The notes beneath the pieces are model-generated. The model did no database searches. It saw only the letters and a list, made by a program, of their open reading frames with translations, and had not been told where the DNA came from. Positions 3,106 through 25,644 of a stretch of 28,115 nucleotides of DNA are shown here, piece after piece. Origin of the DNA: a virus; IMG/VR virus record IMGVR_UViG_3300023196_000518, positions 1 through 28,115 of that record. One strand, written 5' to 3'. Made by a program: the position numbers and the translations under genes. Position 1 is the stretch's first letter; the number at the start of each line of letters is the position of its first letter.

Positions 3106-4628
3106 TGTCAGAAAAAGAACTAGTTAAACAAGCAGCAGAAGCAGACCTACTAACATTTATTCGCCTCATTGCACCCCATCGTATGTTGGGTGTTGTACAT
3201 GAGGAGTTGTGTGCTTGGTGGGGTAGACAAGATGCTAAGGATAACCAACTGGTTCTTCTTCCACGCGATCACCAGAAGAGTGCAATGATTGCCTACCGTG
3301 TAGCATGGTGGGTAACTAAGAATCCAGAGACAACTGTGCTGTACGTATCTGCTACAGCTAACTTGGCTGAAAAGCAACTTAAAGCTGTTAAAGACATTCT
3401 ATTGTCTGATATCTATCGTTTCTATTGGCCTGAGATGGTTAATGAGAATGAGGGTAAACGTGAACGTTGGGCTGTAGATGAGATTAGTGTTGACCACCCT
3501 AAGCGTAAGCTAGAGGGTATTCGTGATGCCACTATTAAAGCATCTGGTATTACGGCTAACGTAACAGGATTGCACTGTAACGTAGCTGTTCTAGATGACG
3601 TAGTTGTGCCAGACAATGCTTACACACAAACTGGTCGTGACCAAGTTAGGTCGTTCTACTCACAACTATCTTCCATTGAATCTACAGGGGCACAAGAGTG
3701 GGCTGTAGGTACTCGCTACCATCCCGGAGACTTGTACAAAGACATGATGGAAATGGTTGAGTTGTACATGGATGACAACGATGAGAATGAGATTGAAAAC
3801 GAAGTGTACGAAGTATTTGAACGTGTAGTTGAGAGTGGTGGTGAGTTCCTTTGGCCTAAACAACGGCGTACTGACGGTAAGACATTTGGCTTTGATGAAC
3901 GTGAACTTGCTCGTAAAAAGGCAAAGTATCTAGACATTACTCAATTTTATGCACAATATTATAACAACCCGAATGCTGTTGAAACACAGCTTATTGACCG
4001 TAGCAGATTTAATCACTACGAACGGGATAAGATTGAGAACTTTAGTGGTGCTTGGTATTTTGGGGACAAACTACTTCATGTTTATGCCGCAATGGACTTT
4101 GCTTACTCTGTTAGCAATAACTCTGATTACACCGTAATTGCAGTTGTAGGTGTTGACTCTGACAACAACTACTACGTACTAGACATTGATCGGTTTAAAA
4201 CTAATAAGATTTCTGTGATGTATGACAAAGCAGAAACAGTGTTTCGTAAGTGGCGGTTTAAGAAAATGCGTTGTGAGGTTGTAGCCGCACAGCGACTCAT
4301 CGTTAGCCAGTTTAGGGACTACATGCGTAGCCAAAACATTGTGTTCACCATTGATGAGTATAACCCACCTAAGACTATGAGTAAGGCAGAGCGTATTGCA
4401 GCTATCCTAGAACCTAGGTATAGCAACAATCAAATCTGGCATTATAAAGGTGGTAACTGTCAAATTCTAGAAGAAGAATTAATGATGAATAACCCAGAGC
4501 ATGATGACGTTAAAGATGCGTTAGCTGCTTGTGTAGAGATTTGTAAGGCCCCTATTAGCCAACGTAGTTGGGGCAAACGTACTAATGTAATTGCATTTAA
4601 TTCTAAGTTTGGAGGCGTGTCAATCTGA
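3105..4628 (+). CDS. terL: Terminase large subunit (507 aa)
   Basis: This is the packaging motor ATPase/nuclease. Residues 48-59 (QLVLLPRDHQKS) form a deviant Walker A of the T7-like type, followed by a helix and VLYVSATANLAEKQL. AVLDD at 161-165 is Walker B, and VGTRYHPGDLY (about 201-211) fits the coupling motif region. The C-terminal half holds an RNase H-fold nuclease; YAAMDFAYSVSNNSDY places its first acidic residue at Asp331, and EHDDVKDALAACVE near the end gives later acidic residues. I chose the ATG at 3105 because it forms a TAATG overlap with the upstream stop; a TTG eight codons earlier has no support. Length is normal for the family. Confidence 0.95.
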   Translation: MSEKELVKQAAEADLLTFIRLIAPHRMLGVVHEELCAWWGRQDAKDNQLVLLPRDHQKSAMIAYRVAWWVTKNPETTVLYVSATANLAEKQLKAVKDILLSDIYRFYWPEMVNENEGKRERWAVDEISVDHPKRKLEGIRDATIKASGITANVTGLHCNVAVLDDVVVPDNAYTQTGRDQVRSFYSQLSSIESTGAQEWAVGTRYHPGDLYKDMMEMVELYMDDNDENEIENEVYEVFERVVESGGEFLWPKQRRTDGKTFGFDERELARKKAKYLDITQFYAQYYNNPNAVETQLIDRSRFNHYERDKIENFSGAWYFGDKLLHVYAAMDFAYSVSNNSDYTVIAVVGVDSDNNYYVLDIDRFKTNKISVMYDKAETVFRKWRFKKMRCEVVAAQRLIVSQFRDYMRSQNIVFTIDEYNPPKTMSKAERIAAILEPRYSNNQIWHYKGGNCQILEEELMMNNPEHDDVKDALAACVEICKAPISQRSWGKRTNVIAFNSKFGGVSI

Positions 4629-4637
4629 CCGTAATAT

Positions 4638-6404
4638 ATGAACGATAATATTCAAGTAAGTTTTAATGATGACGAGTTGGCTGTTAAAATTGCTGACATG
4701 TGGGTGCGCTGGGATACTGCCCGTGCATCATGGAAAGATGAGCAGCAAGAGTTACGTAGTTACATTTTTGCAACAAATACACGTAAGACTAGTAACAACA
4801 AACTACCTTGGAAGAACTCTACAGTTACTCCAAAGCTGACGCAAATTAGAGACAACCTACATGCCAACTACATGGCTGCGTTGTTTCCATCCGACAATTG
4901 GTTCTTTTGGGAAGCAACTGATAAGGATAAAGATTTAACTAAAAAGCGTTATGCCATTACTAACTACATGAAGCAGAAGCTAAAAGCATCTAACTTCCAA
5001 CTTCTTGTATCTCAATTGATTTATGACTACGTTGACTTTGGTAACGTAGTTGTTACATATGACTACGTACGAGACATTATTAGTGATGATACTGGTAATG
5101 TTGTTAGCCGTTATGTAGGCCCTAAAGCCTATCGTATCAACCCATCTGATGTTGTTTTTAACCCACTAGCTGAAGACTTTAGCAAGACACCTCTTGTTCG
5201 CCGTATGCTTAAGTCCATTGGTGATTTGCTTACTGATGTGGAAACTAAACCTGCTCTAAACTACGATAAAGCAGTGGTTGATAAAGTGTTGTCTTTCCGT
5301 CAAAACTACAGGGATGACCCTGAGTTTAAGAAAGAAGTTAACATGGCTATTGATGGTTTTGGTAGTGCTGACGAATATCTTGATAGCGATATGGTAGAAC
5401 TGCTAGAATTCTGGGGTGATATTTACGACCCTTCTACCAAGAAACTTCTTCGTAACCAGTTGGTAACCATCGTAGATCGTAAGTGGATTTTACGTAAACA
5501 ACCTAATCCGTTGTGGACAGGCAACAAACCTATGTTCCATTGTGGATGGCGCTTACGTACCGATAACCTATGGGCACAAGGGCCTCTAGACCAGTTGGTT
5601 GGTATGCAATATCGTATTGACCACTTAGAAAACTTGAAAGCAGACGTATTCGATCTTATTGCCTACCCCGTTATGGTGGTTAAAGGTTCTACGGTTGAAG
5701 AGTTTGAATACGAACCCGGAGCCACTATCTTTGCTGGTGATGAGGGTAGTGTTGAGTTTCTACGTCCTGATGCAACTGCACTGCAAGCAGACATGCAGAT
5801 TAACGAGTTGATGAACCGTATGGAAGAACTTGCTGGCGCACCTAAGCAAGCAATGGGTATCCGTACACCGGGTGAGAAGACTAAATACGAGGTACAGAGC
5901 CTTGAGAACGCCGCAGGACGCATTTTCCAGAGCAAGGTGAGCTGGTTTGAACGGAACATCCTAGAACCTCTCCTGAACGGTATGCTGGCTGAATCCATCC
6001 GTAACTTTGAAGGTGTTGAACGTATCCGTACGATTGATGAAGATTACAACACAGAAGTCTTTGTTGAAGTGAGTAAAGAAGACTTAACTGCTGCTGGTAA
6101 AATCTATCCTATCGGTGCAAGGCACTTTGCTGACCAAGCACGTTTTATCCAAGAACTAGCACAAACAATGCAAGCTGTAGCTGCTATCCCATCTGTAGCT
6201 GCCCACATCAGTGGTAAGGCTATTGCTAAGGCATTGGAAGAGAATCTAGGCTGGCAGAATTATAAAATTGTACAGGATAATGCACTCATCTTTGAACAAG
6301 CTGAGACACAACGACTTATGAACCAAGTGTCTGAAGACATTCAAACTGAAGCAACTATTAGCCCTGAAGGGCCAGCTATTGACAATCCTAATGAAATGGA
6401 GTAA
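4638..6404 (+). CDS. Portal (head-tail connector) protein (588 aa)
   Basis: It follows the large terminase directly and has the size of podoviral portal proteins. The N-terminus (KIADMWVRWDTARASWKDEQ) is helical, then KLPWKNSTVTPKLTQIRDNL and AALFPSDNWFFWE, which I recognise from portals of this phage group. Residues around LDQLVGMQYRIDHLENLKAD look like the long stem helix, and RTPGEKTKYEVQSLENAAGR a conserved portal loop. The C-terminal part is helical and acidic. The product would form the dodecameric ring through which DNA enters and leaves. No clear Shine-Dalgarno site precedes the ATG; the spacer is the AT-rich gtaatat. Confidence 0.92.
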   Translation: MNDNIQVSFNDDELAVKIADMWVRWDTARASWKDEQQELRSYIFATNTRKTSNNKLPWKNSTVTPKLTQIRDNLHANYMAALFPSDNWFFWEATDKDKDLTKKRYAITNYMKQKLKASNFQLLVSQLIYDYVDFGNVVVTYDYVRDIISDDTGNVVSRYVGPKAYRINPSDVVFNPLAEDFSKTPLVRRMLKSIGDLLTDVETKPALNYDKAVVDKVLSFRQNYRDDPEFKKEVNMAIDGFGSADEYLDSDMVELLEFWGDIYDPSTKKLLRNQLVTIVDRKWILRKQPNPLWTGNKPMFHCGWRLRTDNLWAQGPLDQLVGMQYRIDHLENLKADVFDLIAYPVMVVKGSTVEEFEYEPGATIFAGDEGSVEFLRPDATALQADMQINELMNRMEELAGAPKQAMGIRTPGEKTKYEVQSLENAAGRIFQSKVSWFERNILEPLLNGMLAESIRNFEGVERIRTIDEDYNTEVFVEVSKEDLTAAGKIYPIGARHFADQARFIQELAQTMQAVAAIPSVAAHISGKAIAKALEENLGWQNYKIVQDNALIFEQAETQRLMNQVSEDIQTEATISPEGPAIDNPNEME

Positions 6405-6406
6405 AC

Positions 6407-6423
6407 TAGTTATATATTAACTA
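6407..6423. repeat. Short AT-rich inverted repeat after the portal gene
   Basis: TAGTTA and TAACTA are perfect inverted arms around a TATAT centre, three bases after the portal stop. It is followed by a run of alternating TA up to the next ATG. As a hairpin it would be weak (six A/T-rich pairs), and no T-run follows, so a terminator is unlikely. It could be a protein-binding palindrome or part of an AT-rich promoter for the next genes. The repeat itself is seen; the role is a guess. Confidence 0.4.
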
Positions 6424-6436
6424 CTATATATATATT

Positions 6437-6688
6437 ATGAATAAACTATTATTAAATAATAAACCTAAAGATATTACTAATGAAGAGTTTATTAAGTTAT
6501 GGAATAACAGTACTTATGTATTAGAAACATTATATAACACATTACTAGTATTAAATAAGGAACTTACTTCAACTAAGAAAGATGATTTTGATTGTCCTAA
6601 CCACTATGCTAAACTTGCATTTAATTTAGGGCAATCTAAGATTATTGAACAAATTGTTACAATGTTACCTGACGGAGTTAAGAGGTAA
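6437..6688 (+). CDS. AT-rich hypothetical protein between portal and scaffold (83 aa)
   Basis: A small, mostly helical, soluble protein (MNKLLLNNKPKDITNEEF...), with Asn, Leu and Lys abundant. Its DNA is visibly richer in A/T than either neighbour, with runs such as attattaaataataaac, and the 32 bases before it are nearly all A/T with no Shine-Dalgarno site. It interrupts the usual portal-scaffold order. No family recognised. It may be a late insertion into the structural block; the base composition is the main sign. The reading frame is open with a consistent A/T third position, so I take it as a real gene. Confidence 0.68.
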   Translation: MNKLLLNNKPKDITNEEFIKLWNNSTYVLETLYNTLLVLNKELTSTKKDDFDCPNHYAKLAFNLGQSKIIEQIVTMLPDGVKR

Positions 6689-6742
6689 CGTTTTTTAAAA
6701 TACCTACTCTAAGACTGCTACTTTTTAGGAGATAACTTAAGC
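6689..6742 (+). promoter_or_regulatory. Leader of the scaffold-capsid genes with strong ribosome site
   Basis: A 54-base spacer, one of the longest gaps on the + strand. It has an A/T-rich first part (gttttttaaaatac) and a clear Shine-Dalgarno sequence, taggag, 11 bases before the scaffold ATG. A promoter for the highly expressed scaffold and capsid genes would fit here, but I cannot identify boxes with confidence. Confidence 0.35.
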
Positions 6743-7468
6743 ATGACCAATGCAACCATTTTCGGTAATGAAGACCACATTGCCACCCCTGCGACAGAGA
6801 CACCTGTTGTAGAACTATTCACTTCACTTGTTGGAGAGAATCAAAAATACAAGACACCAGAGGATTTAGCTAAGGCTTATTCTAATGCTGACCAGTTTAT
6901 TGAGACTTTGAAAGAAGACAATCGTAAGCTACGTGAGCAAGTGACACAAGCCAAGACTATTGACGAGGTTCTTGAACGTATGTCAAAACAAAATGTCGCG
7001 CCAGTGGAAGACAATCCTCCTGTTCAGGGTATTAGCTCTGAAGATGTGCAACAGCTTGTAGAGAAGACGTTACTAGGGCGTGAAGCCACTAAGACCAAGA
7101 CAGATAATCTACTGCTAGCTGATAAACTTATGAAAGATAAGTTTGGTGAGAAAGCAATGGATGTGTTTAAACAACGTGCTGCTAACCCAGAGAAAGCACG
7201 TATCTTAATGGAATTGGCAGCTACTGACCCGGCTGAATTTGTTTCAATGTTTATTGGTACTTCGTTGCCTACAAACAACATGGATAATGGTTCAGTGAAT
7301 ACAACTTCAGTAGCTTCTACTTCGGGCAATCGTGCTGGTATTGAGGGAACTAAAGAGTGGGCCGCTAAGGTTCGCAAAGAAGACCCTAATCAATATTGGT
7401 CACAAGAGTTCCAGTATAAGTTACAACAAACTGTTAATAAAAACCCCGCCCTATACTTTGGGCAATAA
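6743..7468 (+). CDS. Capsid assembly scaffolding protein (241 aa)
   Basis: It lies directly before the major capsid gene, as scaffolds do. The N-terminal part contains KYKTPEDLAKAYSNADQFIE, a helix typical of T7-type scaffolds, then a coiled-coil stretch LKEDNRKLREQVTQAKTIDE (about 57-76). The middle is acidic and Gln-rich, a low-complexity Ser/Thr/Asn linker lies at about 175-200, and the C-terminus ends in a helix (QEFQYKLQQTVNKNPALYFG) that probably binds the capsid protein. It would guide procapsid assembly and then leave. Confidence 0.88.
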   Translation: MTNATIFGNEDHIATPATETPVVELFTSLVGENQKYKTPEDLAKAYSNADQFIETLKEDNRKLREQVTQAKTIDEVLERMSKQNVAPVEDNPPVQGISSEDVQQLVEKTLLGREATKTKTDNLLLADKLMKDKFGEKAMDVFKQRAANPEKARILMELAATDPAEFVSMFIGTSLPTNNMDNGSVNTTSVASTSGNRAGIEGTKEWAAKVRKEDPNQYWSQEFQYKLQQTVNKNPALYFGQ

Positions 7469-7479
7469 GGAGAATTTAA

Positions 7480-8436
7480 ATGGCTGGTATTGACTATTCA
7501 AAAGTTAATGAACATCTAGTTCGCACAGAACTCTGGTCTTCAGAACTAAAAGATATTCTACAAGAGCAACTAATGGGCACTAAATATGTCCGTATGCTCA
7601 ATGGTTTCCCCGATGGTAATCAGTTTACTATCCCCTCTATTGGTGAACTACCAATGCGGGAAGTTGCTGAGAACACCCCTGTAACGTACGATGCAATGGA
7701 CACTGGTGAATTCACCTTCTCTATTGACCGTTACGTTGAGTCTGCTACGTTCATCACGGACAAAGCTAAACAAGACAGCTACTACGCTGGTCAACTAATT
7801 GGTATGTTTCCTTCTAAGATGCGCCGTGCCCTAGATGAGAATCTAGAGTCTTCTGTGTTCTCACTAGCTAACACCCAAACTGTTAACGACCTAAACAGCA
7901 TTAACGGTGCTTCACACCGCTTTGTTGCCTCTGGTAGCTCCAACACTGTTCTATCTCTAGATGACTTCGCTAAGGCTAAGTATGCTCTAGATAAAGCACA
8001 GGCTGGCGGTACTCGTGTTGCCATCATCGATGCTTCACAAGAGTATGTTTTCAACACCCTAGTTGGCGCACAAGCCTTCATCAACAACCCACAGTTCCAA
8101 GGTATTGTGAATGGTGGTTTCGTTAATGAAGTTACTGGTATGCGTTTCATCCGTAGCTTCTTCGGCTTTGATGTGTATGTTTCTAACTTCCTAGCAACCC
8201 CTACTGACACTGCTATCAATAGCGTGAACGTTCCTGCTACCCCAGTTACCAACATCTTCATGTCAGTTGGTGGCGATCTAACCCCATTCGTGGGTGCTTA
8301 TCGTCAGATGCCTCGTGTTGAATACGAGCGTAACAAAGACCTACGCCGTGATGAATATGTTATGAATGCACGTTTTGGCCTCAAGCTCTATCGCCCAGAG
8401 TGCCTAGTGTCTGTCATTTCTAAATCAACCATCTAA
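7480..8436 (+). CDS. Major capsid protein (318 aa)
   Basis: Its position after the scaffold, strong ribosome site (aaggaga, about 7 bases before the ATG) and GC-richer codons, typical of high expression, identify it. N-terminal helix LWSSELKDILQEQLMGTKYV, then a beta-rich part (FTIPSIGELPMREVAENTPV), and a helix around FPSKMRRALDENLESSVFSL resembling the spine helix of HK97-fold capsids; the C-terminal part (RVEYERNKDLRRDEYVMNAR, then FGLKLYRPE) is typical of small podoviral capsid proteins. About 35 kDa, normal size. It would form the icosahedral shell. Confidence 0.92.
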   Translation: MAGIDYSKVNEHLVRTELWSSELKDILQEQLMGTKYVRMLNGFPDGNQFTIPSIGELPMREVAENTPVTYDAMDTGEFTFSIDRYVESATFITDKAKQDSYYAGQLIGMFPSKMRRALDENLESSVFSLANTQTVNDLNSINGASHRFVASGSSNTVLSLDDFAKAKYALDKAQAGGTRVAIIDASQEYVFNTLVGAQAFINNPQFQGIVNGGFVNEVTGMRFIRSFFGFDVYVSNFLATPTDTAINSVNVPATPVTNIFMSVGGDLTPFVGAYRQMPRVEYERNKDLRRDEYVMNARFGLKLYRPECLVSVISKSTI

Positions 8437-8454
8437 TATTGAAAGGATACTGAA

Positions 8455-8913
8455 ATGACTCGTAAATCTACTTGGACAAACGCTGATGGTCTAGTTGTGG
8501 GCTTCGGCCCCAACTTCGCAGAGCGTAATGTCGCTGGCGTACTTGAAACTGATGGCGTTGTAAAAGAGGCTCGTCTAGCAATTACTTTCCAAAGCTCTGG
8601 TGCAACTGTTGACCTCCCCGCAGGTTCTGTTGTGCAAGATGTGGTTATGAAAGTAGGCACTGCATGGGTTGGTGGTACTGACGTACAAGTTGGTGATGGC
8701 ACTGACCCTGATGGCTGGATTTCAGCTACTCAAGGTGCTACTGCTAGCCTAACCATTGGTGCAACTATCCGTGCTGCTGGCGCATATGCCATCGGTGATG
8801 CTGCTACCAACCGTGGTCTAGGCAAAGTGTACGCTGCTGCTGACACTCTAGATGTTGCTTTCACTGGTACGTTCACTGCCGGTACTGCTGATATCTTTGT
8901 CCGTTACATCTAA
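8455..8913 (+). CDS. Capsid decoration/stabilising-like protein (152 aa)
   Basis: A Gly/Ala/Thr/Val-rich, probably all-beta protein with a good ribosome site (gaaagga) 18 bases after the capsid stop. Phrases such as TFQSSGATVDLPAGSVVQDV and VGDGTDPDGWISATQG look like the small beta-sandwich virion proteins that follow capsid genes in related phages. No cysteines or membrane segments. The stop is followed by a strong terminator, so scaffold, capsid and this gene form one highly expressed group. A head decoration (cement) role is inferred from location and composition; a minor tail protein is less likely. Confidence 0.7.
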   Translation: MTRKSTWTNADGLVVGFGPNFAERNVAGVLETDGVVKEARLAITFQSSGATVDLPAGSVVQDVVMKVGTAWVGGTDVQVGDGTDPDGWISATQGATASLTIGATIRAAGAYAIGDAATNRGLGKVYAAADTLDVAFTGTFTAGTADIFVRYI

Positions 8914-8926
8914 TTGTAACTAAACT

Positions 8927-8959
8927 GGAGGGGGCGCAATGCTCCCTCCTTTTTCTTTT
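8927..8959 (+). terminator. Rho-independent terminator after the capsid genes
   Basis: Stem GGAGGGGGC (8927-8935) pairs with GCTCCCTCC (8941-8949) over nine pairs including one G-U, with a five-base loop GCAAT. It is followed by TTTTTCTTTT. This is a textbook intrinsic terminator placed after the capsid and decoration genes, and probably limits read-through into the tail genes. Confidence 0.9.
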
Positions 8960-8973
8960 GGAGAAATATCATA
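8960..8973 (+). promoter_or_regulatory. Ribosome binding site that points to an ATA start
   Basis: GGAG at 8960-8963 stands seven bases before ATA at 8971-8973, an ideal spacing, directly behind the terminator T-run. No ATG, GTG or TTG lies at a workable distance in the open frame; the first TTG is at 9010, 46 bases after GGAG and inside the conserved N-terminus. Confidence 0.65.
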
Positions 8974-9555
8974 GCAAACGTACAACATTCTGCCCTTACA
9001 GGCGCTAACTTGCATGAGCCAAAAGGTGTTGAGAACGCTTTAATCGGTCAAGTATACATTGCTGACGGTGCTAATAGTGGTACATGGGTATACCCCTCTG
9101 GTTTCGCTTACGGTGAGTTGTTTATTACTGAAGGTGTAACCGCCCAAACACTCCCTGCATCAAGTGCAACTGCAAAACTAAATCCAACTGCTGAGTGGAC
9201 TACTAACGGTAATGCTAACGTAACTTTAGATGCTGCAAATGGTACTGTTACTATTTTGCAAGCAGGTGAATACGGTCTTAACTTTTACATTACATTTAAT
9301 ACAGCATCAATTGCTTCTTCTGCTATTTATAACTTTCACTATGCAGTGAATGGTGTACACAGTACACGTAGAGCATTAGTAAAAAAAGTAAGCAACGGTA
9401 TTGACATGTTACACTGTAGTGCTTCTGGAATTGCTGTGTTTGAACAAAACGATGTGATTTCTATGTACGTAGGTGGGGATGCTACATCTTCTTCTACTGC
9501 TATTACTCCCATTGAAGCTGGGTTTAATTGCATTCTAATTCAACCTGAGCTATAA
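8971..9555 (+). CDS. Head-fibre-like virion protein, apparent ATA start (194 aa)
   Basis: Read from the ATA, the protein begins (M)ANVQHSALTGANLHEPKGV. This N-terminal anchor, NVQHSxLTGxxLHEPKG, recurs in many phage virion proteins, which usually begin MANVQHS. The C-terminal part (about 75-194) has an alternating beta pattern, including VTILQAGEYGLNFYITF, HYAVNG and FEQNDVISMYVGGD. This resembles a C1q/TNF-like jelly roll, a fold used for surface binding. The good ribosome site before the ATA and the complete anchor argue for this start over the TTG at 9010, which would remove half of the anchor. A fibre or decoration on the head is the likely role. A point mutation or assembly error changing ATG to ATA is the alternative. 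Confidence 0.75.
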   Translation: MANVQHSALTGANLHEPKGVENALIGQVYIADGANSGTWVYPSGFAYGELFITEGVTAQTLPASSATAKLNPTAEWTTNGNANVTLDAANGTVTILQAGEYGLNFYITFNTASIASSAIYNFHYAVNGVHSTRRALVKKVSNGIDMLHCSASGIAVFEQNDVISMYVGGDATSSSTAITPIEAGFNCILIQPEL

Positions 9556-9558
9556 ATC

Positions 9559-10266
9559 ATGGCAAAATTATCTTTGCTAGACATGACACAGAACATTCTT
9601 TCTGCACTGGACAGTGACCCCGTAGACTCTATTGATGAAACTGTAGAAGCTGTGCAAGTTGCAGAGCTAGTTAAAGAAGCCTACTTTGAACTTATTAGCC
9701 AACGTGATTGGCCTTTTTCATTTGTATTAGGTACACTTAGTCCTTTAGGTGATACTAATAATCCAACTAAGATGAAGATTCCAGATACATGGAATAAACT
9801 TAAGTGGGTTAAATATAATAAAAAAGAAATTACATACATTCCACCAGAAGAGTTTCAAACACTCATTGACAATCGAGTTGTAGAAGCTGGTATAGTTGAT
9901 AGTAAGGGGTTTGTTATTAATGCAGACCCTATCTATTGGACAAGTTATGACGACACATACATCTTCTTTGATGGTATTAATAAGGCTGTAGAGAGTACTC
10001 TGCAATCATCTAAGTGTGTTGTATACGGCACTGCTCAAGCAGACTGGACACATGTAGATAGTTTTGTTCCTAACATTCCAGAGAAGTTCTTTCCTACACT
10101 GTTAGCAGAAGCTAAGAGTCAATCGTTTGTTAACTTGAAACAACAAGCTAATGCTCGTGAAGAGCGTAAAGCTACACGAGGCCGCATGGCTATGCGTAAC
10201 GATGCTTGGCGCAATGAGAATGGTGAAGCTAAATATAACAACAAGGTAAATTATGGACGTAAATAA
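9559..10266 (+). CDS. Tail tubular protein A / head-tail adaptor (235 aa)
   Basis: The size and order (after the capsid genes, before the nozzle gene) match T7 gp11-type adaptors. Recognisable parts: LLDMTQNILSALDSDPVDSI at the start, AELVKEAYFELISQRDWPFS (residues about 35-54), the central beta-rich domain with KLKWVKYNKKEITYIPPEEF, and a C-terminal helix FFPTLLAEAKSQSFVNLKQQ followed by a basic stretch (REERKATRGRMAMR). It should form the dodecameric collar under the portal. The gene starts three bases after the preceding stop. Confidence 0.88.
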   Translation: MAKLSLLDMTQNILSALDSDPVDSIDETVEAVQVAELVKEAYFELISQRDWPFSFVLGTLSPLGDTNNPTKMKIPDTWNKLKWVKYNKKEITYIPPEEFQTLIDNRVVEAGIVDSKGFVINADPIYWTSYDDTYIFFDGINKAVESTLQSSKCVVYGTAQADWTHVDSFVPNIPEKFFPTLLAEAKSQSFVNLKQQANAREERKATRGRMAMRNDAWRNENGEAKYNNKVNYGRK

Positions 10267-10522
10267 ATCTAGCTACGACCGTGTTATGGAACGTAGCTTA
10301 GAAAAGAAAGCAGCAGCTAAAGAGCGTAAAGAAGAACGAGAAGAACAAGGTATTGTTAACAAACTTGTTATTGAACGTGGCCCTGCTGGTTTGTATTCAA
10401 CCCGTTACTCTATGCGTGGTGCAGTACCTGATGAGTTAAAGGGTTTGTTTACACGTAAAGATCGTATCCTTGCAATTGCAGAACGTAGGGGAATTGAAGT
10501 TGAAACAGAAACCTATTCTTAA
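10253..10522 (+). CDS. Small charged hypothetical protein (89 aa)
   Basis: Starts at ATG inside the last 14 bases of the adaptor gene. The N-terminal 40 residues are a highly charged helix (RVMERSLEKKAAAKERKEER), the C-terminal part is globular (GLYSTRYSMRGAVPDELKGL) and ends acidic. No family recognised. Its place between the adaptor and the nozzle gene and its overlaps on both sides suggest a virion or assembly role, but this is only context. Confidence 0.72.
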   Translation: MDVNKSSYDRVMERSLEKKAAAKERKEEREEQGIVNKLVIERGPAGLYSTRYSMRGAVPDELKGLFTRKDRILAIAERRGIEVETETYS

Positions 10523-10655
10523 AGAAGATGCCCAGCAACGTAAGACTCGATTAGAGAAACTTGCAGTGGCTGGAGACAAAGCTAAGAAAGAACTTGGTAT
10601 TGTTGAAGAACAACCCAAAGACGTAAACAAAAGTAAGTGGAAAGGTGTAATGTAA
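10500..10655 (+). CDS. Small hypothetical protein, TTG start (51 aa)
   Basis: A short Lys/Glu-rich helical protein (LKQKPILKEDAQQRKTRLEK...) that ends two bases before the nozzle start, at TAATATG. No ATG is available near its beginning. I chose TTG at 10500 because AGGGGA (10487-10492) lies seven bases before it; TTG at 10494 is too close to that site. It overlaps the previous gene by 23 bases in another frame. The first residues and start are uncertain; the downstream part, beyond the overlap, is convincing. Confidence 0.55.
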   Translation: MKQKPILKEDAQQRKTRLEKLAVAGDKAKKELGIVEEQPKDVNKSKWKGVM

Positions 10656-10656
10656 T

Positions 10657-11559
10657 ATGGCAGTACAAGCCGCTGTAAAAGATAGTTTTACCTTTGTAGG
10701 TGGCCTTAACACTGAAGGCGGCTTTTTCATTACTCCTGATAACTCTTGGAAAGAGGGAGTTAATGTCGTACCTAGTCCTGACGGTAGTGTAGAACGCCGT
10801 AATGGTCTTGACTATGAAGAAAACTACACACTGTTCGCATCTGCTATTACCCCTGATCAAAAGGACTTGTGGGCCTTTACAACGGGCATTTGGACTACCG
10901 TAGGGGGTAATGGTAACCTAGACTTCATCGTGGCTCAGACAGGGCCTACACTGCATTTCTATAGTGGTGCTACGGGTGTTGTTAGTGGTAGTAAGAAATC
11001 TTTCACTGTTAACCTAAGTAGTTATAATGCTATAGGCAATACGGAAACATCTGGTACAGGTATTTGTAGCTTTGCATCTACTTATGGTAAACTCATTGTT
11101 ACTAGTAAGAATACTGACCCCATTGTTATTACATACGATAGTGCTACAGATACAATTACCACTGCTGTAATTAGCTTACAGAATCGTGATTTCAAAGGTA
11201 AAGACACTGGTGCTGCTATTGATGCAGAATATACAGAAGCTGAGTGGACTTCTCGTGGTGTTAACATTCTAGACGTTAAGTACAACTTGTATAACCAAGG
11301 ATGGACAGATAGTAAGATTTCATCATACTTGTCTGCTAATAGTAATAAATACCCTGCCTACACTAAGCAGTGGATTTATGGTAAAGATACTAATGATGAC
11401 TTCCAACCAGCATTCTTAAACAAACAAGACTTCGGTAACTCACCTGCCCCTAAAGGGCACTTTATTATTGACGCATTCCCAACTACATCATACCGCCCTA
11501 AGAGTTGTGCATTCTTTGCTGGTCGTGTGTGGTATGCTGGTCTTCCTAGTACTAATTAA
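10657..11559 (+). CDS. Tail tubular protein B / nozzle, N-terminal part (300 aa, ends at in-frame TAA)
   Basis: This is the N-terminal 300 residues of a tail nozzle protein (T7 gp12 type). It begins AVQAAVKDSFTFVGGLNTEG, typical of the family, with PDNSWKEGVNVVPSPDGSVE and RRNGLDY close behind. The frame ends at TAA 11557-11559 in the middle of a conserved region, FFAGRVWYAGLPSTN, where homologues continue into an IYFSQ motif. That motif is present just after the stop in the same frame. A 300-residue product would lack most of the beta-propeller domain, so it is either a nonsense-mutated gene, a read-through site or a sequence error. Confidence 0.82.
   Translation: MAVQAAVKDSFTFVGGLNTEGGFFITPDNSWKEGVNVVPSPDGSVERRNGLDYEENYTLFASAITPDQKDLWAFTTGIWTTVGGNGNLDFIVAQTGPTLHFYSGATGVVSGSKKSFTVNLSSYNAIGNTETSGTGICSFASTYGKLIVTSKNTDPIVITYDSATDTITTAVISLQNRDFKGKDTGAAIDAEYTEAEWTSRGVNILDVKYNLYNQGWTDSKISSYLSANSNKYPAYTKQWIYGKDTNDDFQPAFLNKQDFGNSPAPKGHFIIDAFPTTSYRPKSCAFFAGRVWYAGLPSTN
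11557..11559 (+). other. In-frame TAA inside the nozzle gene
   Basis: The context is ACT AAT TAA CTA GGT. The frame before (from 10657) and after (to 12840) is the same, and no other stop occurs in 728 codons. A single-base change from TAT, TTA, CAA, AAA or GAA would give it. Confidence 0.9.
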
Positions 11560-11583
11560 CTAGGTAGCATTTACTTTAGTCAA

Positions 11584-12840
11584 GTGTTAGATACATTTGA
11601 CAAGATTGGTATGTGCTATCAAACCAATGACCCTACATCTGAAGTTTTTAGTGATTTAGAAGATGATGATGGTGGCACTGTACAAATCCCTGAAGCTGGA
11701 GAAATCCTATCACTACAACCATTAGGTCGTGGTGTTATGGTGTTGGCGACTAACGGTGTTTGGTTTATCAGTGGTATTAACGTAGGTTTCACTGCTGGCT
11801 CCTACTCCGTTGAGCGTGTATCCACTGTAGGATGTAATGCAGGTAAGAGCATTGTAGTTGTTGAAGACACTCTCATCTACTGGTCTACCAGTGGTATTTA
11901 TGCAATCTCCCCCGGTGCATCTGGTGCTGAGTTCGTAAGTAAGAACGTCAGTGACCAAAACATTAAAACATTCTTTGAAGAAATTCCTGTACTAAGTAAG
12001 TTGTTTGCTGAAGGTAGTTATAACGCAACAGATAAAACTATCTATTGGTTGTATACTAGTAGCACTAGTACATCTACTAGTACAGGTAAGTTTAATAAAG
12101 ATCACGTACTAGCTTTAGACTTACGTCTTAATAGCTGGTATTGGTTTAGTTACAACACTGCTGTTGGTTCCATCCCTGTGTCCATTGAGATTACTCGTGA
12201 GACTAACGAAGCAGAACTTACATACGAAATTATTGCTGGTGTTGATGACGTTATTGCTGGCACAGATAATGTACAAGCAGACTTAGCAATTATTAACGGC
12301 ACTAAGAAGTTGTTTAAATTCTTAACACTACATTACACTGGTAGTGTTTACTCGTTAACGTTTAGTGATATGGTTAACCAGCGCGATAGTGCAACTAAGT
12401 TTAGAGACTGGTATGCAGCCAACACTGCGTCAGTAGAAGAAGACTCATACTTTGTCACTGGTTATAACATGGGTGGCAATGGCCCCTCTCGTGCTAAGAC
12501 AGGTCAATATTTAACAGTGTTTATGAAGCGTACAGAAACAGAGTTTGATGTTAACTCCATTCCATTAAATCAAAGTAGTTGCCTAATGCAAAGTCGATGG
12601 GACTTTACTGATAACGTATACCCCGGCAAGTGGGCAGATGAAGTACAAGTATATCGACAACTACGTGCATTCTTTACTGCTGGTGCTGGCCCCTTTGATG
12701 ACGGCTATCCACTAGTCATTACTAAGAACAAACTACGTGGTAGAGGTAAAGCTGTACAATTTAAGTTTGCTAGCGAAGCTGGTAAAGATATGAAGATTGT
12801 AGGTTGGACAGGGACGTTTGTAGGTAACACTAATGTCTAG
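11584..12840 (+). CDS. Tail tubular protein B / nozzle, C-terminal part (continues frame after TAA)
   Basis: The C-terminal part of the same nozzle protein. The open frame actually resumes at 11560 with LGSIYFSQ; 11584 is the first usable start codon (GTG). CYQTNDPTSEVFSDLEDDDGG and the beta-rich parts after it (RGVMVLATNGVWFISG) are the conserved middle of T7 gp12-like proteins. No Shine-Dalgarno site stands at proper distance before GTG, so independent translation is doubtful. Joined with the first part it gives 727 codons before the final TAG, close to the usual family length. A Ser/Thr run (TSSTSTSTSTG) occurs at about 12055-12089. The last eight bases overlap the acetyltransferase gene. 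Confidence 0.8.
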   Translation: MLDTFDKIGMCYQTNDPTSEVFSDLEDDDGGTVQIPEAGEILSLQPLGRGVMVLATNGVWFISGINVGFTAGSYSVERVSTVGCNAGKSIVVVEDTLIYWSTSGIYAISPGASGAEFVSKNVSDQNIKTFFEEIPVLSKLFAEGSYNATDKTIYWLYTSSTSTSTSTGKFNKDHVLALDLRLNSWYWFSYNTAVGSIPVSIEITRETNEAELTYEIIAGVDDVIAGTDNVQADLAIINGTKKLFKFLTLHYTGSVYSLTFSDMVNQRDSATKFRDWYAANTASVEEDSYFVTGYNMGGNGPSRAKTGQYLTVFMKRTETEFDVNSIPLNQSSCLMQSRWDFTDNVYPGKWADEVQVYRQLRAFFTAGAGPFDDGYPLVITKNKLRGRGKAVQFKFASEAGKDMKIVGWTGTFVGNTNV

Positions 12841-13261
12841 CATACGAAAAGCAACAAAATCAGATTTATTTTCTTTAATTAATATAGCTAAGAATTTTGT
12901 AGAGTATTTTAACCACTTTGCATGGGACAAAGATAGTGTTAAAGAAACACTAGAACAACTTTTAAAAATAGGTACGATGTACGTAGCAGAAAAAGATGGT
13001 GTAGTTGTTGGTGTAATTGGTGGTATTGTTGTACAAAATATGTGGAATAAACATGAGGTAATATACCAAGAATTGTTTTGGTGGGTAGAAGAAGAATATA
13101 GAGAATCTTCTATATCGATTAGGTTGTTAAAAGAATTTGAAAATGCAGCACCTATTGGTGCTAAAATAGCATTGTCACTATTACCTAAAAGCAATATTAA
13201 AACATCAACATTAAGTAAGTTAGGTTATCAACCTGCTGAAATAGCATTTACAAAGGTTTAA
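12833..13261 (+). CDS. GNAT-family acetyltransferase-like protein (142 aa)
   Basis: The layout follows the GNAT fold: SSIRKATKSDLFSLINIAKN (β1-α1), helices around KETLEQLLKIG, the strand pair MYVAEKDGVVVGVIGGIVV (β3-β4), EVIYQELFWWVEEEYRESSI near the acetyl-CoA loop, and AKIALSLLPKS followed by LSKLGYQPAEI at the end. The usual Q/RxxGxG/A loop is replaced by EYRESSISIR, so cofactor binding may be weakened. Such genes sit at this place in other podoviruses of this type. It overlaps the nozzle gene by eight bases and is richer in A/T than its neighbours. The substrate is unknown; modification of a virion or host protein is possible. Confidence 0.82.
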   Translation: MSSIRKATKSDLFSLINIAKNFVEYFNHFAWDKDSVKETLEQLLKIGTMYVAEKDGVVVGVIGGIVVQNMWNKHEVIYQELFWWVEEEYRESSISIRLLKEFENAAPIGAKIALSLLPKSNIKTSTLSKLGYQPAEIAFTKV

Positions 13262-13263
13262 TT

Positions 13264-13800
13264 ATGGCAGTTTTTACAGCACTTGGTGTTGGTTTAGGTT
13301 TAGCAGGTACAGCGGCTACAGTAGCTGGTGTTGCAGTTGCTGCTACTGCTGTTAGTACAGTTCAAAACATTCAAGAGACTAAGAAAGCTGGACAAGCTGC
13401 TGCTGAGACAGCACGACAAACACAAGTTGCTGCTGAAAAAGAATACGTTGCACAACAACAAAAAGCAGAAGTACAGAATGTACGTACAGTGAGACAACAA
13501 ATTAGAGAAGCACGTACAGCACAGGCTGCTATGGCTAACGTAGCTGCTCAGACGGGTGGAATGGGCAGTAGTGCCCTTGCAGGAGGTTTGGGTAGCATAG
13601 GTAGCCAAGCATCTAGTAACCTCTCCTACATGTCTGAAATCGCTGAAGCTAACACTGCCATTGGTAGCGCACAGCTAGAAGGTGCTAGAGCAGGTGCAGC
13701 AGGTGCAGCTAAGATTGCTGTTGCTCAAAGTAATGCTGCTGTTTGGGGTAGTGTTGGTCAACTTAGTGGAACTATCTTTTCAGCTACTAGAAAGGCATAA
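13264..13800 (+). CDS. Internal virion protein, gp14-like (178 aa)
   Basis: The N-terminus is a long Ala/Gly/Val-rich hydrophobic segment (about residues 4-33, LGVGLGLAGTAATVAGVAVA) that could insert into a membrane. A charged coiled-coil region follows (AAEKEYVAQQQKAEVQNVRT and RQQIREART), then a Gly/Ser/Ala-rich part with GGMGSSALAGG. This composition and the position directly before the giant ejection protein match T7 gp14-type core proteins, which leave the capsid and form a channel in the outer membrane. The start is two bases after the preceding stop. Confidence 0.82.
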   Translation: MAVFTALGVGLGLAGTAATVAGVAVAATAVSTVQNIQETKKAGQAAAETARQTQVAAEKEYVAQQQKAEVQNVRTVRQQIREARTAQAAMANVAAQTGGMGSSALAGGLGSIGSQASSNLSYMSEIAEANTAIGSAQLEGARAGAAGAAKIAVAQSNAAVWGSVGQLSGTIFSATRKA

Positions 13801-19710: not shown

Positions 19711-21945
19711 ATGGCAACCTATCAAGCAAACATTACTAAGAACCTAGAACCTGCTACAGCTAGTGTTAACCCACTAATTAGGGCAGCAGAGGCAAGTGCG
19801 GCAGCATCTCGACAAGTTGCAGAGGGCAATACCGCCATTGCAAAGACACTAACTGGTGTGGGTGAGACTCTATTCAAAGGATATCAAGACTACCAAGTAG
19901 CATCTGCTGAACAAGAGGCTATTGGTCTTGCTGGTGAGTTTTTACAAAGTGGTCAAGCAGCATCTGTAGCTGGTAGACAAGTTGCACAAGTAGAAGCGCA
20001 ACAGAATAGGTTTCAAACTCTATCTACTGGCCCACAAATGCCAGAGGGTGAAATGCAACGTGATGCACAAATGGCTGCATTTACTAATGAAGTAGATCGG
20101 TTGAAGAAAGCCTCAATGGGTGGTATGTCTAATGCTGAGTATGTATCTCGCATTGATGCACTTACTAAGAAAGCTATTGCACAAACTCCCGGAATGTCAG
20201 ATAAGATTCGTGAACGTGTAGGTGCTGTAACTGGTCTATCTGGTGCTGATCGTTGGGCACAGATGAACTACGTTAAAGATCGCTTTAAAGATCAAGAGAA
20301 AACAAAGCAAGCTACTCCTGAAGAGATGGCTATTAAAGATATTGCTTTAGTAGCACCGTTAGGTTTTGGTACTAATGAAGAATTATTAAATTTTTATAGA
20401 AACAACCGTTTAGAATATGACAAACGTATGAACAACGCCAAAGAGGTGATGTTGATACAAACACAAACAAACACTGTTAAAAACAATCTTAATAGATTAG
20501 AAAATCAAGATGACATACAAGCAAATACACAGCGGTCTGCTTTTATGGGTGTCTTTAGTGGTGGTTTAAGTATATCTGTTCTTAAATCAACTGCTACTGA
20601 TAAAGAAAACATCTTTGGTACAACTCTTGATTTAATGGCTAAGGGTGCAAACGTATCTGTTGACATTGTACCTTTTAAAGTACAGATTGATGTTCACGCT
20701 GCTCAAATGCGTACAAACATTGACGGTGCTAAACGAGAAACGTACGCTTTCATTGATAAATATTTAGTTAGTAATCCTAATGTGTCCGATAGTAAACGTA
20801 AAGAACTGTATGCTGACGTAGATAGGGCAGCTAACACTATGATGGCTAAGTATGCGGATGACAAGGGTGTTGGCCTAGTTGCTATGGCTAACATTATGAA
20901 GACCTATCGTGATAAGGGCATTGCTGAGAAGACACAACTAGTTGACTTGGCAATTAAACAACAGAGTGCTATGCAGAATAATCCCATGGTTATGGCATAC
21001 TGGGCTGGTGGTGAGGCACGAGAGAACCTTAAGCGTACCAATCGTAGCTTCTTTGAGTTTATGACTGGTCAAGAACAAGAGCTTACTAGTAGCATTACTG
21101 GTGTTCGTAACGACATTCAAGGTGCTACTAACCTAGCTAACGTACAACGTGTGATGGTGCAAGCTGGTACATCCCCCACTGCTGTGGCTCCTGACCCCAT
21201 TGCTGAACCTAATGTAACTCGTGCTGCACATCAAGCATTGGCTGCTAGTGCAGTTGAAATTCTTAAGAAGAGTGAACTAACTCCTATTCAAGTTAGCACA
21301 GTGTCGGCTGCTTTGGCTACGTCTGCTGAGTATGGTGCTAACAGTTTACTACTTGCTAAAAACTATAAGACACTAGGTATTAGTATTGAGAAACTAACAG
21401 ATCAAGACCAAGGTGTTATTAAAGCTAACGTAAGTAATAGTGTTCAGAAATCTATTATTAGTATCAATGACATTAAAACTGTACTTGAAGCTAAGTATAA
21501 AACTACACTGACACTAGGTGTTAATGATGCTGGTGAGATTAGTGTTATTCCACCAAAGGCTCCAGTTGTACCATCTCAACGTAAGGCAATGACTCGCGCT
21601 GAAATGATGGCTGCGGCTGCACCTGTTATCAATGCTGCTAATTCATCTGCTGCACAAGAGTTTATGAAGCAAGCTAAACCAATGCTTAACAACATTGTAT
21701 ATAGCAGGGCTATGTTAACTAAAGAAACTCCACAAGTAATTGGTGCAGACTTTGCTACACTAATTAATACTAATCAAACATATACAGGGTTTTACTCAGC
21801 AGAGGCTAAGAGTGTTGCACCAACACCTATAGCAGCACCAGCAGCTACAACTAAAGGTGGTGCGCTAAAGGTAGGAGATGTTGTTAATGGGTATCGTTAT
21901 AATGGTGGTGATACTAACGTTGAATCTAGCTGGACTAAACAATAA
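19711..21945 (+). CDS. Internal virion protein, gp15-like (744 aa)
   Basis: A long, mostly helical protein rich in Ala, Gln and Lys, starting one base after the stop of the giant protein. The N-terminal part (VNPLIRAAEASAAASRQVAE, then TLFKGYQDYQ) is a helix seen in core proteins of this class. The region up to about 600 is helical repeat-like. The C-terminus, after an Ala/Pro linker (PTPIAAPAATTKGGALKVG), ends GDVVNGYRYNGGDTNVESSW, a short motif common at the end of internal virion proteins. It matches T7 gp15 in size and position and should form the periplasmic tunnel for DNA entry. Confidence 0.85.
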   Translation: MATYQANITKNLEPATASVNPLIRAAEASAAASRQVAEGNTAIAKTLTGVGETLFKGYQDYQVASAEQEAIGLAGEFLQSGQAASVAGRQVAQVEAQQNRFQTLSTGPQMPEGEMQRDAQMAAFTNEVDRLKKASMGGMSNAEYVSRIDALTKKAIAQTPGMSDKIRERVGAVTGLSGADRWAQMNYVKDRFKDQEKTKQATPEEMAIKDIALVAPLGFGTNEELLNFYRNNRLEYDKRMNNAKEVMLIQTQTNTVKNNLNRLENQDDIQANTQRSAFMGVFSGGLSISVLKSTATDKENIFGTTLDLMAKGANVSVDIVPFKVQIDVHAAQMRTNIDGAKRETYAFIDKYLVSNPNVSDSKRKELYADVDRAANTMMAKYADDKGVGLVAMANIMKTYRDKGIAEKTQLVDLAIKQQSAMQNNPMVMAYWAGGEARENLKRTNRSFFEFMTGQEQELTSSITGVRNDIQGATNLANVQRVMVQAGTSPTAVAPDPIAEPNVTRAAHQALAASAVEILKKSELTPIQVSTVSAALATSAEYGANSLLLAKNYKTLGISIEKLTDQDQGVIKANVSNSVQKSIISINDIKTVLEAKYKTTLTLGVNDAGEISVIPPKAPVVPSQRKAMTRAEMMAAAAPVINAANSSAAQEFMKQAKPMLNNIVYSRAMLTKETPQVIGADFATLINTNQTYTGFYSAEAKSVAPTPIAAPAATTKGGALKVGDVVNGYRYNGGDTNVESSWTKQ

Positions 21946-21946
21946 T

Positions 21947-22483
21947 ATGAAACCTTGGGAAATGGTGTGGAATGTTATGTCGGGTAAAGGGGAGACACCA
22001 CCTTTAGCACAAACCCCGTCTAATCCAGCAGACAATGATTACTACGCTAGACTAGCTAAGGCTGAGAGTGGTGGTAATGTAGAGGCTAAAGCCACTACTA
22101 GTAGCGCAGTGGGGCCGTTTCAATTCGTTGAAAAGACTTGGCTAGAACAAACTAAAGCTATGGGTAAGGACTATGCTTTAGACGCTCGTACAGACTACGC
22201 TAAAGCTAAAGAAGTGGTACAACACTTTACTGAGAAGAATAGGGAGTATCTACAGAATAAACTTGGCAGAGAAGTGGGTGATACAGACTTGTATGCTGCT
22301 CACTTCTTGGGTAATCAGGGAGCAAGTAAATTGCTAACTGCTAAACCATTTATGACCGTTGATAAGGTCGTAGATAAGAGGGCACTAACTGCCAACAAGA
22401 ATGTGTTCTATGATAAGGTTACAAAGAAACCTAGAACAGTTGCTGAAGTATATAAGATATTACAAACAAAGATAGGGGAATGA
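21947..22483 (+). CDS. Lytic transglycosylase, SLT type (178 aa)
   Basis: The motif YARLAKAESGGN places the catalytic Glu at residue 40. SAVGPFQFVEKTWLE is the usual second motif (Gly-Pro-Phe-Gln-Phe), and TDLYAAHFLGNQGASKLL the third (A-HFLG), together defining an SLT/lysozyme-like domain that cleaves the glycan strand without water. I chose ATG at 21947, one base after the previous stop; a longer reading from 21878 overlaps the preceding gene and adds an unrelated Met/Ile/Val-rich leader. In T7 this activity is a domain of gp16; here it is a separate small virion protein, likely opening peptidoglycan during DNA entry. It is the last + strand gene. Confidence 0.9.
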   Translation: MKPWEMVWNVMSGKGETPPLAQTPSNPADNDYYARLAKAESGGNVEAKATTSSAVGPFQFVEKTWLEQTKAMGKDYALDARTDYAKAKEVVQHFTEKNREYLQNKLGREVGDTDLYAAHFLGNQGASKLLTAKPFMTVDKVVDKRALTANKNVFYDKVTKKPRTVAEVYKILQTKIGE

Positions 22484-23101: not shown

Positions 23102-23259
23102 TTCTGTTTCTCCACAAAGCTGTTACAAAGTTGATGTAGTTTACCATCTTCTGTTTTAAATTTCAACACTACCTCAATGGTGTTATCCGTTTCGTAAACA
23201 CTTATCTTCAAATACCTACGTAATGCTGCCATCATATGATAGCTGTCATCGTTTATCAT
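23098..23259 (-). CDS. Small hypothetical protein (53 aa)
   Basis: Begins MINDDSYHMMAALRRYLKIS, continues with a beta-like segment (VYETDNTIEVVLKFK) and ends VEKQK. A strong ribosome site (AGGAAGGAAG, the second AGGA five bases before ATG) lies in the end of the sigma-factor gene, which it overlaps by 14 bases. Its TGA overlaps the next ATG (ATGA). No family recognised; the coupling and ribosome site are the support. Confidence 0.65.
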   Translation of the reverse strand: MINDDSYHMMAALRRYLKISVYETDNTIEVVLKFKTEDGKLHQLCNSFVEKQK

Positions 23260-23776
23260 CTACTTCCTTCCTGATTGTACGTTTAGCTAGATACACAAGT
23301 TTCTTAGCATACCCCTCTTTACATCTTAGTGCAACCCCTATGTCGTAATAACGCATACTCTCATACTCTCGTAAGTATAAGGCTCTTTGTTGCTTACGAG
23401 GTAGTGTACCCCAAACCTTAAGAACCATATCCATCGTTTGCTTAGTCTCCAATAAAGTCTCAGGACTTATTGTAGTGTGCAACTCTATTTCGGTTTTAAG
23501 GCTACGTAGAGGGGTCTTAGAGGCTTTATTTATTGCAATGGTACATAACCATGTGTAGAACAAACTATCGCCTCTGAAGCTCTTTAAATGCCTGTATGCT
23601 GCTAGGAATGTCTCTTGTGTAAGCTCTTCTGCTAATGCACTGTCGTTAACCCTCCTCCGCAATAAGCGGAAGATACGTTGCCAGTATCGAGCCGTAAGAA
23701 GGGAGTAAGCACCCTCACTCCCCTCTAGTGCTTCTGTTATTAGTATCGCATCAGATTTCACAGACACCGGCAACAC
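23246..23776 (-). CDS. ECF-type RNA polymerase sigma factor (176 aa)
   Basis: The two domains of an ECF (group 4 sigma-70) factor can be seen. Region 2 (about residues 22-86) contains YWQRIFRLLRRRVNDSALAE followed by ELTQETFLAAYRHLKSFRG, then SLFYTWLCTIAINKA, the core-binding and -10 recognition helices. Region 4 (about 124-172) contains LPRKQQRALYLREYESMRYY then DIGVALRCKEGYAKKLVYLA, a helix-turn-helix for the -35 box; its recognition helix differs from the usual GTVKSRLHRAR. It would redirect host RNA polymerase to phage promoters. The 5' end overlaps the reductase gene by 26 bases; ATG at 23776 has no clear ribosome site, and a GTG five codons later is possible. No anti-sigma gene is seen. 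Confidence 0.85.
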   Translation of the reverse strand: MLPVSVKSDAILITEALEGSEGAYSLLTARYWQRIFRLLRRRVNDSALAEELTQETFLAAYRHLKSFRGDSLFYTWLCTIAINKASKTPLRSLKTEIELHTTISPETLLETKQTMDMVLKVWGTLPRKQQRALYLREYESMRYYDIGVALRCKEGYAKKLVYLAKRTIRKEVDDKR

Positions 23777-25643
23777 ATGCTAACATTTGAGCACCCTCTA
23801 CGTTGTCATCTTTCTCAATGAACGATTCCCAATCAATAGTCTTAGGCATCTTATCTTTCATATTCTCGTACTCAAGATGAGAGATTTCCTCGTAAGGTGC
23901 TTGTCGGTATGACCCACCATCCCAAGGGAGGAAACTAATGCCACTAATCTCATCAAAGTGTTCCCACACCCAAGCGCCTACAGAGGGCCAATCTTCTTCT
24001 TTAACGTACACTGTTACTGACGGCTTATGCTCACACCAGTGTCGTTGATAGATTAGCCACAATTTCAAGTGTGTGAAGCTATCAAGTTCATCTCGTGTAA
24101 TACAACCAGCAGGTGCTTTAGTAGGGAAGCTAAAGATAGTTGTATCTAATGGCTTCATTACACACGGCTCACTAGGTACTCCTTGATCTTGTAGAAACGC
24201 TGTAAGAGGGTCTTTAGTATCGTTACGCACCCTGCGAATATAAAACTGACTATGCCGAGCATGAATACCAGAGGCACTATCAACAAGCTGAGAAACAGTA
24301 CCAGAAGGTTTAACACAAGTGATTGCTGTTGACTGTTGTATCCCCAACGCATCTGCAAACTCCTTATTAGTAACAACTGCAATGTTCTTTAATCGCTCCA
24401 ATCTACTAGGTAAGTCGTTGTCGTTGGTATTGTTGAGTAGGGGACAGTCGAGAATTCCGGTGATGGAGACTCCCAATAGACGCTCTTCTTCGGTGTTCTT
24501 TTGCCAGATTTTTCGTAGGTAAGGGAAATCTGTGAGGCAAGATTGGTAAGTTCCGAGGATAGAGGCAAGTCGCACCTTCCTTTCCAAACTATTTTCATCC
24601 TCTGTGTCTCTGGCGACAACTTCCGTAAGGTTACAAAACTGATTCGGCCTGAGTATGATTTCAGAACAGGGGTTAGTACCAAACTCATAATTGCTGTCTC
24701 TCCGTCCAATCTTTGCAACTGTAGATTTAGCCGCTTGTCTTGAAAAGATTCCGCGCTCTCCACTGAAAGATTGGTACAAAGCCAGCCACTCTGACATAAA
24801 CTCCCCAACTGTGGGGCGTTCATTATATGCTGCACTATTGTTTGCAAGTGCGCGTTGTCCTTCACGTTCCCACCAGTTACCAGCTTTAGCATGTCGCATC
24901 CTATCGTCAGACAAATCACTTAAACTAATCATAGCACTGCGGCGTACACCACCAACAACTACTACATCCCCAATCTTACACATAATGTCATGGCACTCTA
25001 AACTATTTAGTTTACGTCCAGCCGCACCTTTAAACTTATTAGTAACAAACTCAAACAAGTCTTGCAACGGCTTAGGGCCACTAGCACGTCCACCAAATGT
25101 TTTAAGTCGTGCACCAGCAGGTCGTACCTTAGACACATCCCATTTAGGAATCTCACCAGAATAGAGTAGAGCAATTACTTGTCGTAACGCTTTAGCCCAA
25201 CCTGCTTTACTATCAGACACAGAGATAGTAGTGTCGCTATTAAACATCTTAGCAGGTACATCTGGCAGTTTGTTAACATATTTACTTTCAACACTAAAGC
25301 CTACACCAGTACCGCACAAAAGAATGTACATGGCTTCGTCAAAGGATTTAACATCATCTACAGCTAGGTAGCTACAATTGTAGCCAGCAGTGTTATCACG
25401 CTCTAGCGCCTCACCAGCAGTCATTACAGCCCTCATAGAAGGCATAACTTCTAGTGTTAGGATTGCTTGGTGCAGTTCTGAATAGAGTTCACTAGGGATG
25501 GCGTAGCCCTGCTTCTTAATGAGTTGTGTGTTCATAAAACTCATGTAGCGGTCAACACTCTCAGGCCAGTGTTCACGGCGTTTCTTATCGTCAATGAAAC
25601 GGCAGTAACGGCTCTTAGCAATAAATGTTTGGTAACTATCCAT
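23751..25643 (-). CDS. Class II (adenosylcobalamin-dependent) ribonucleotide reductase, monomeric type (630 aa)
   Basis: Reduces ribonucleotides to deoxyribonucleotides for phage DNA synthesis. The catalytic set of the Lactobacillus-type enzyme is complete: the first redox cysteine in YNCSYLAVDD (Cys90); NPCSE at 324-328, with Asn324, the thiyl Cys326 and Glu328; the second redox cysteine Cys337 eleven residues on (CSEIILRPNQFC); and the C-terminal pair CVAGVC (Cys623, Cys628). VKPSGTVSQLVDSASGIHAR is the conserved barrel segment. At 630 residues it is shorter than the 739-residue Lactobacillus leichmannii enzyme. The ATG at 25643 follows the preceding TAA by one base; a TTG three codons earlier is less likely. 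It needs adenosylcobalamin, so the host must make or import B12. Confidence 0.95.
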   Translation of the reverse strand: MDSYQTFIAKSRYCRFIDDKKRREHWPESVDRYMSFMNTQLIKKQGYAIPSELYSELHQAILTLEVMPSMRAVMTAGEALERDNTAGYNCSYLAVDDVKSFDEAMYILLCGTGVGFSVESKYVNKLPDVPAKMFNSDTTISVSDSKAGWAKALRQVIALLYSGEIPKWDVSKVRPAGARLKTFGGRASGPKPLQDLFEFVTNKFKGAAGRKLNSLECHDIMCKIGDVVVVGGVRRSAMISLSDLSDDRMRHAKAGNWWEREGQRALANNSAAYNERPTVGEFMSEWLALYQSFSGERGIFSRQAAKSTVAKIGRRDSNYEFGTNPCSEIILRPNQFCNLTEVVARDTEDENSLERKVRLASILGTYQSCLTDFPYLRKIWQKNTEEERLLGVSITGILDCPLLNNTNDNDLPSRLERLKNIAVVTNKEFADALGIQQSTAITCVKPSGTVSQLVDSASGIHARHSQFYIRRVRNDTKDPLTAFLQDQGVPSEPCVMKPLDTTIFSFPTKAPAGCITRDELDSFTHLKLWLIYQRHWCEHKPSVTVYVKEEDWPSVGAWVWEHFDEISGISFLPWDGGSYRQAPYEEISHLEYENMKDKMPKTIDWESFIEKDDNVEGAQMLACVAGVCEI

Positions 25644-25644
25644 A

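Follow-up and report, generated by a model that had tools for sequence, protein, structure and literature searches.

The question raised by this locus is where translation of a phage virion fibre gene begins, and what it would mean if the answer were AUA, which is among the weakest of natural starts. The window, that is, the whole stretch of DNA analysed, is a 28,115-base virus record with the gene content of a Zobellviridae-like podovirus, in the order terminase, portal, scaffold-like gene, capsid, small decoration-like gene, fibre, tail tubular A, tail tubular B and internal virion genes. On the plus strand, the major capsid protein gene (7480 to 8436; PHROG 267) and the small decoration-like gene (8455 to 8913) are followed by an intrinsic terminator-like hairpin and T tract (8927 to 8949), which was found by a terminator scan and has a fold of −18.4 kcal/mol (z of −4.1). 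Next come the fibre gene (8971 to 9555; 194 codons plus stop), an open frame which matches PHROG 38624, and the gene for tail tubular A, the head completion adaptor (9559 to 10266; PHROG 7592). The run of capsid, small decoration-like gene, fibre and tail tubular A is the one seen at Zobellviridae-type fibre loci.

The stop-to-stop frame of the fibre extends from 8920 to 9555, and within it no ATG, GTG or TTG was present upstream of the TTG at 9010 to 9012, the only conventional in-frame start nearby. The sequence at the proposed start reads GGAG (8960 to 8963), AAATATC, ATA (8971 to 8973), GCA-AAC-GTA-CAA-CAT, so that the Shine-Dalgarno (SD) site lies 7 nt 5' of the AUA; its duplex with the anti-SD is about −6.4 kcal/mol. 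Read from ATA 8971, the N terminus is IANVQHSALTGANLHEPKG, containing the family-wide anchor ANVQHSALTGANLHEPKG (8974 to 9027). This corresponds to the Zobellviridae-type pattern ANVQHSxLTxxxLHEPKG, and residues 1 to 40 match PHROG 38624. The original prediction, that the anchor is complete and in frame only from this ATA, that GGAG precedes it by seven bases and that TTG 9010 sits inside the anchor with no ribosome site, was thus confirmed. It had also placed the ATG of relatives at exactly this position, and a homologue search with alignment of N termini and start codons agreed, with the addition that some relatives have GTG (L005, L029) or TTG (L014, L017) there.

Structure prediction gave the fibre a TNF/C1q/BclA-like knob and an N terminus of low confidence, which fits a trimeric fibre anchored by a peptide. 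Of the earlier description of a head fibre after the capsid terminator, a virion fibre behind the terminator is upheld by the gene order, the hairpin and the predicted TNF/C1q-like knob, whereas attachment of the anchor to the head, and hence "head" rather than "tail" fibre, is something we infer from the gene order. The fibres of SIO1 (gp29), Lentibacter phages ICBM1-3, Vibrio phages and the Klebsiella/Citrobacter Citrovirus phages share the N-terminal anchor and mostly the same gene order but, where checked, start on ATG or GTG.

ATA was found at the same position in three further records. The independently assembled contig L030 spans window positions 3981 to 13783 with five differences in 9,803 bases and an identical ATA. 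The codon was also conserved in two diverged relatives, L038 (DNA about 97% identical to the window 5' of the fibre and 94% 3' of it) and L034 (about 90% identical), both of which retain the hairpin and the SD site. The spacers between the SD site and ATA differ among the ATA phages (AAATATC, AATTATC and AACTATC), indicating that the context diverged whereas the ATA stayed. Among the three distinguishable ATA phages, codons 2 to 13 showed four synonymous changes and one nonsynonymous change (Ala/Ser at residue 12; P of about 0.013 versus the site fractions, about a quarter of sites being synonymous). For translation of the stretch 5' of TTG 9010 in ATA-bearing viruses, this evidence is direct, if modest. 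A separate observation is that the C-terminal domain of the fibre was swapped as a block in L034 and L038 relative to window positions 9090 to 9558, with flanks still about 90 to 97% identical.

Start codons were then compared across the family in two samples drawn by capsid protein rather than by fibre. ATG predominated among the sampled members, TTG and GTG were frequent, and ATA and ATC were present. Pattern scans for the anchor with near-cognate starts identified ATC in four lineages (L035, L103, L140 and L139) and ATT in two lineages (L256 and L257). L139 was kept as ambiguous, with in-frame ATG and GTG 10 and 9 codons upstream; an upstream codon in frame was also present in L140, a TTG with no evident SD site. 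Most matches of the broad ATA pattern and of the ATC/ATT pattern lacked HEPKG and were set aside as unrelated chance matches, and a scan of genome contigs returned one distant relative, in an alphaproteobacterial MAG. The ATA, ATC and ATT examples were without exception from metagenome contigs. The fibre starts on ATG or GTG in 17 other annotated phage records checked, including cultured Vibrio, Klebsiella, Citrobacter, Lentibacter and Celeribacter phages. The anchor of public record MW202697 (MW202697.1, L250) opens ATA-ATC-ATT-CCA, near-cognates only. Gene finders commonly skip AUA, AUC and AUU starts on account of their rarity, and in this record, around locus positions 690 to 770, the fibre CDS (UOF80644.1) is annotated from a downstream start, with loss of the conserved anchor.

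A quick capsid DNA tree of 130 rows, with SH-aLRT support only, required one change for ATA, four for ATC and 22 between ATG and non-ATG. AUA and AUC arose about five times on this tree, which does not include the AUU lineages. The sister of L103 (ATC) is very close to it and has ATG, and some switches are therefore recent. For this reason the comparison of L103 with L140 (five synonymous and no nonsynonymous changes) was left out of the codon evidence above, since the ATC may be younger than most of them.

Among the late genes checked, near-cognate starts were restricted to the fibre. AUH-only starts occurred in 4 of 92 distinct fibre contexts versus 0 of 377 contexts from seven other late genes of the same loci, namely portal, scaffold, capsid, decoration, tubular A, a small gene and tubular B (Fisher P of 0.0014; the start contexts are related to one another and P values are guides only). 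The corresponding counts for all non-ATG starts were 23/92 and 17/377. The small decoration-like gene immediately 5' of the fibre started on ATG in 51 of 51 contexts checked.

In the capsid-linked table, each of the seven distinct AUH contexts had GGAG 4 to 9 nt from the start, versus 26 of 55 ATG contexts. Some of the AUH members had been found through a GGAG pattern, which biased a first SD comparison. A final search with no SD requirement recovered the same lineages minus L139, whose anchor does not fit the pattern, plus L256 and L257, and every AUH gene it returned has GGAG or better. The SD sites of L035 and L140 are much stronger, and L256 and L257 have GGGAG.

The use of AUA 8971 as the real start of the fibre gene is well supported by the starts of relatives aligned with it (ATG, GTG, TTG, ATC or ATT), by retention of ATA across three distinguishable phages, by the synonymous excess 5' of TTG 9010 and by the independent AUC and AUU starts at the same codon. 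Two other ways of decoding it were considered. No tRNA genes were found in the window, which may be incomplete, and a phage tRNA reading AUA was rejected. For an altered code in which ATA is Met, internal ATA codons were few; at the only two alignable sites, the partner residues in relatives were mostly V, then P, I and T, with Met outside the eight commonest.

We consider it probable that this AUA is used inefficiently and limits the output of a low-copy virion fibre. GGAG would position the 30S subunit on AUA 8971, where the initiator tRNA (anticodon CAU) would pair with the A and the U and be mismatched at the third base, a mismatch that is weakly tolerated and disfavoured by IF3 (PMC10158994, PMC2268962). 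fMet would still be incorporated, with initiation being slow and opposed by IF3 and output being a fraction of that from AUG. Such output would suit a trimeric fibre encoded just 3' of the capsid and decoration genes, whose products are very abundant, and would be cut by both the terminator and the start codon. Inspection of the downstream junction showed that tail tubular A begins 3 nt past the fibre stop in the window, with no clear SD site; the stop lies one base from the tubular A start in L034, L038, L103, L140 and the ATG relative L101, and overlaps it (TAATG) in L035 and L139. Because of these close or overlapping junctions, translation of the adaptor may be coupled to that of the fibre and throttled together with it. 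Neither this possible coupling nor the recurrence of near-cognate starts in the family formed part of the original prediction. The inefficient use, the N-terminal fMet, the low-copy benefit and the coupling are what we infer, and the independent AUA, AUC and AUU starts at one codon suggest that low fibre output is tolerated or useful.

Natural AUA and AUU starts are already known. Gene 26 of T4 has an internal AUU start giving a second product, a single case; it resembles the fibre in being an AUH start in a phage virion gene, although the fibre AUA is not internal. The AUU starts of Escherichia coli infC and pcnB are IF3-sensitive near-cognates that keep output low, and infC is autoregulated by its own product, IF3; no such product feedback is proposed for the fibre. 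An IF3-sensitive limitation of fibre dosage is plausible and agrees with the literature on AUA/AUU starts. These two E. coli starts are cited in a study of Staphylococcus aureus (Nat Commun 2026, PMC13009471), in which infC, ccpN, citZ and cvfC1 have natural AUH starts with strong SD sites and reduced output, some of them conserved among relatives. In that work AUA and AUU starts gave roughly 10% to a third of AUG reporter expression, and their extended SD sites are resembled by those of the AUH-start fibres (PMC13009471). The S. aureus examples are bacterial genes, several of them regulatory or metabolic, whose expression was measured, whereas here each of AUA, AUC and AUU evolved in a structural gene of phages that is known from sequence. 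In cellular genomes, Belinky et al. listed neither an AUG-to-AUA nor an AUG-to-AUC switch for 61,358 ancestral AUG starts (PMC5622118), and our literature search found no report of AUA/AUU starts evolving repeatedly in one phage structural gene. With all three AUH starts having arisen here, repeatedly, and none seen in the neighbouring genes, the fibre gene offers a natural experiment in start-codon weakening and a case in which control of virion stoichiometry by the start codon can be tested.

It is possible, though we lean against it, that the AUA is used but that need for the fibre is small or rare enough for weak starts to arise by drift and be retained, the weakness itself being of no benefit. 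The start codon is labile, as the 22 changes on the capsid tree indicate, the ATG sister of L103 points to recent switching, fibre C termini are often swapped, and tolerated weakening of a noncritical gene predicts much of the same pattern as a dosage benefit. Against this, ATA persists in a clade with about 10% DNA divergence, the AUH-gene frames are intact (194 to 220 codons) and their SD sites remain strong. Under the opposite extension, the fibre gene was repeatedly placed under IF3-discriminated AUH starts as an evolved means of controlling dosage, and the number of fibre copies, perhaps together with the coupled adaptor, would track host IF3 level or growth state; we regard this as unlikely.

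An out-of-frame leader ORF (8939 to 8974, plus strand; MLPPFSFGEIS*) runs from an ATG in the hairpin loop to a TAG overlapping the AUA, and its translation could in principle end in re-initiation at the AUA. The leader and its overlapping stop occur in all three ATA phages, and noncanonical starts tested with mutant initiator tRNAs can be used in re-initiation (PMC2268962). However, ATA-GCN creates the TAG automatically, the ATC starts read by eye showed nothing equivalent, the AUA has a good SD site of its own at 7 nt, and the leader ATG and its SD site are buried in the −18 kcal/mol hairpin. The leader is probably not used, because its ATG sits in the loop, and such coupling is improbable.

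Initiation at TTG 9010, yielding a protein without the first 13 residues, is very improbable. TTG is a standard start and the codon is kept as TTG in L034 and L038, but it has no SD site, most of the conserved anchor would be lost, the equivalent codon is no standard start in L103 and L140 (ATC) or L035 (CTG), and synonymous changes dominate the codons 5' of it in the ATA phages. A sequencing or consensus error (G read as A), which had been offered as the plain alternative, can be virtually dismissed, since four records have the ATA, including two that have diverged from the window, even though the window carries at least one suspicious base, in the stop at 11557 to 11559 that is missing from L030.

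That in-frame stop divides tail tubular B into 10657 to 11559 and 11584 to 12840. L030 differs from the window at these bases and has no stop, so intact copies of the gene exist, and the stop is either a strain mutation or a sequencing error. Elsewhere in the window, a transglycosylase-like ORF (21878 to 22483) overlaps the 3' end of the gene at 19711 to 21945 in a different frame, for which two genes, a frameshift or an indel error are alternatives. On the minus strand, within 23246 to 25652, a ribonucleotide reductase gene (PHROG 367) shares its end region with a sigma-factor-like gene (PHROG 1740), and adjacent ORFs within 26666 to 27804 share the similar stretches MTDKELMQQALGALEKS and MTDKEAMKLALDALEYA and are possibly tandem paralogues.
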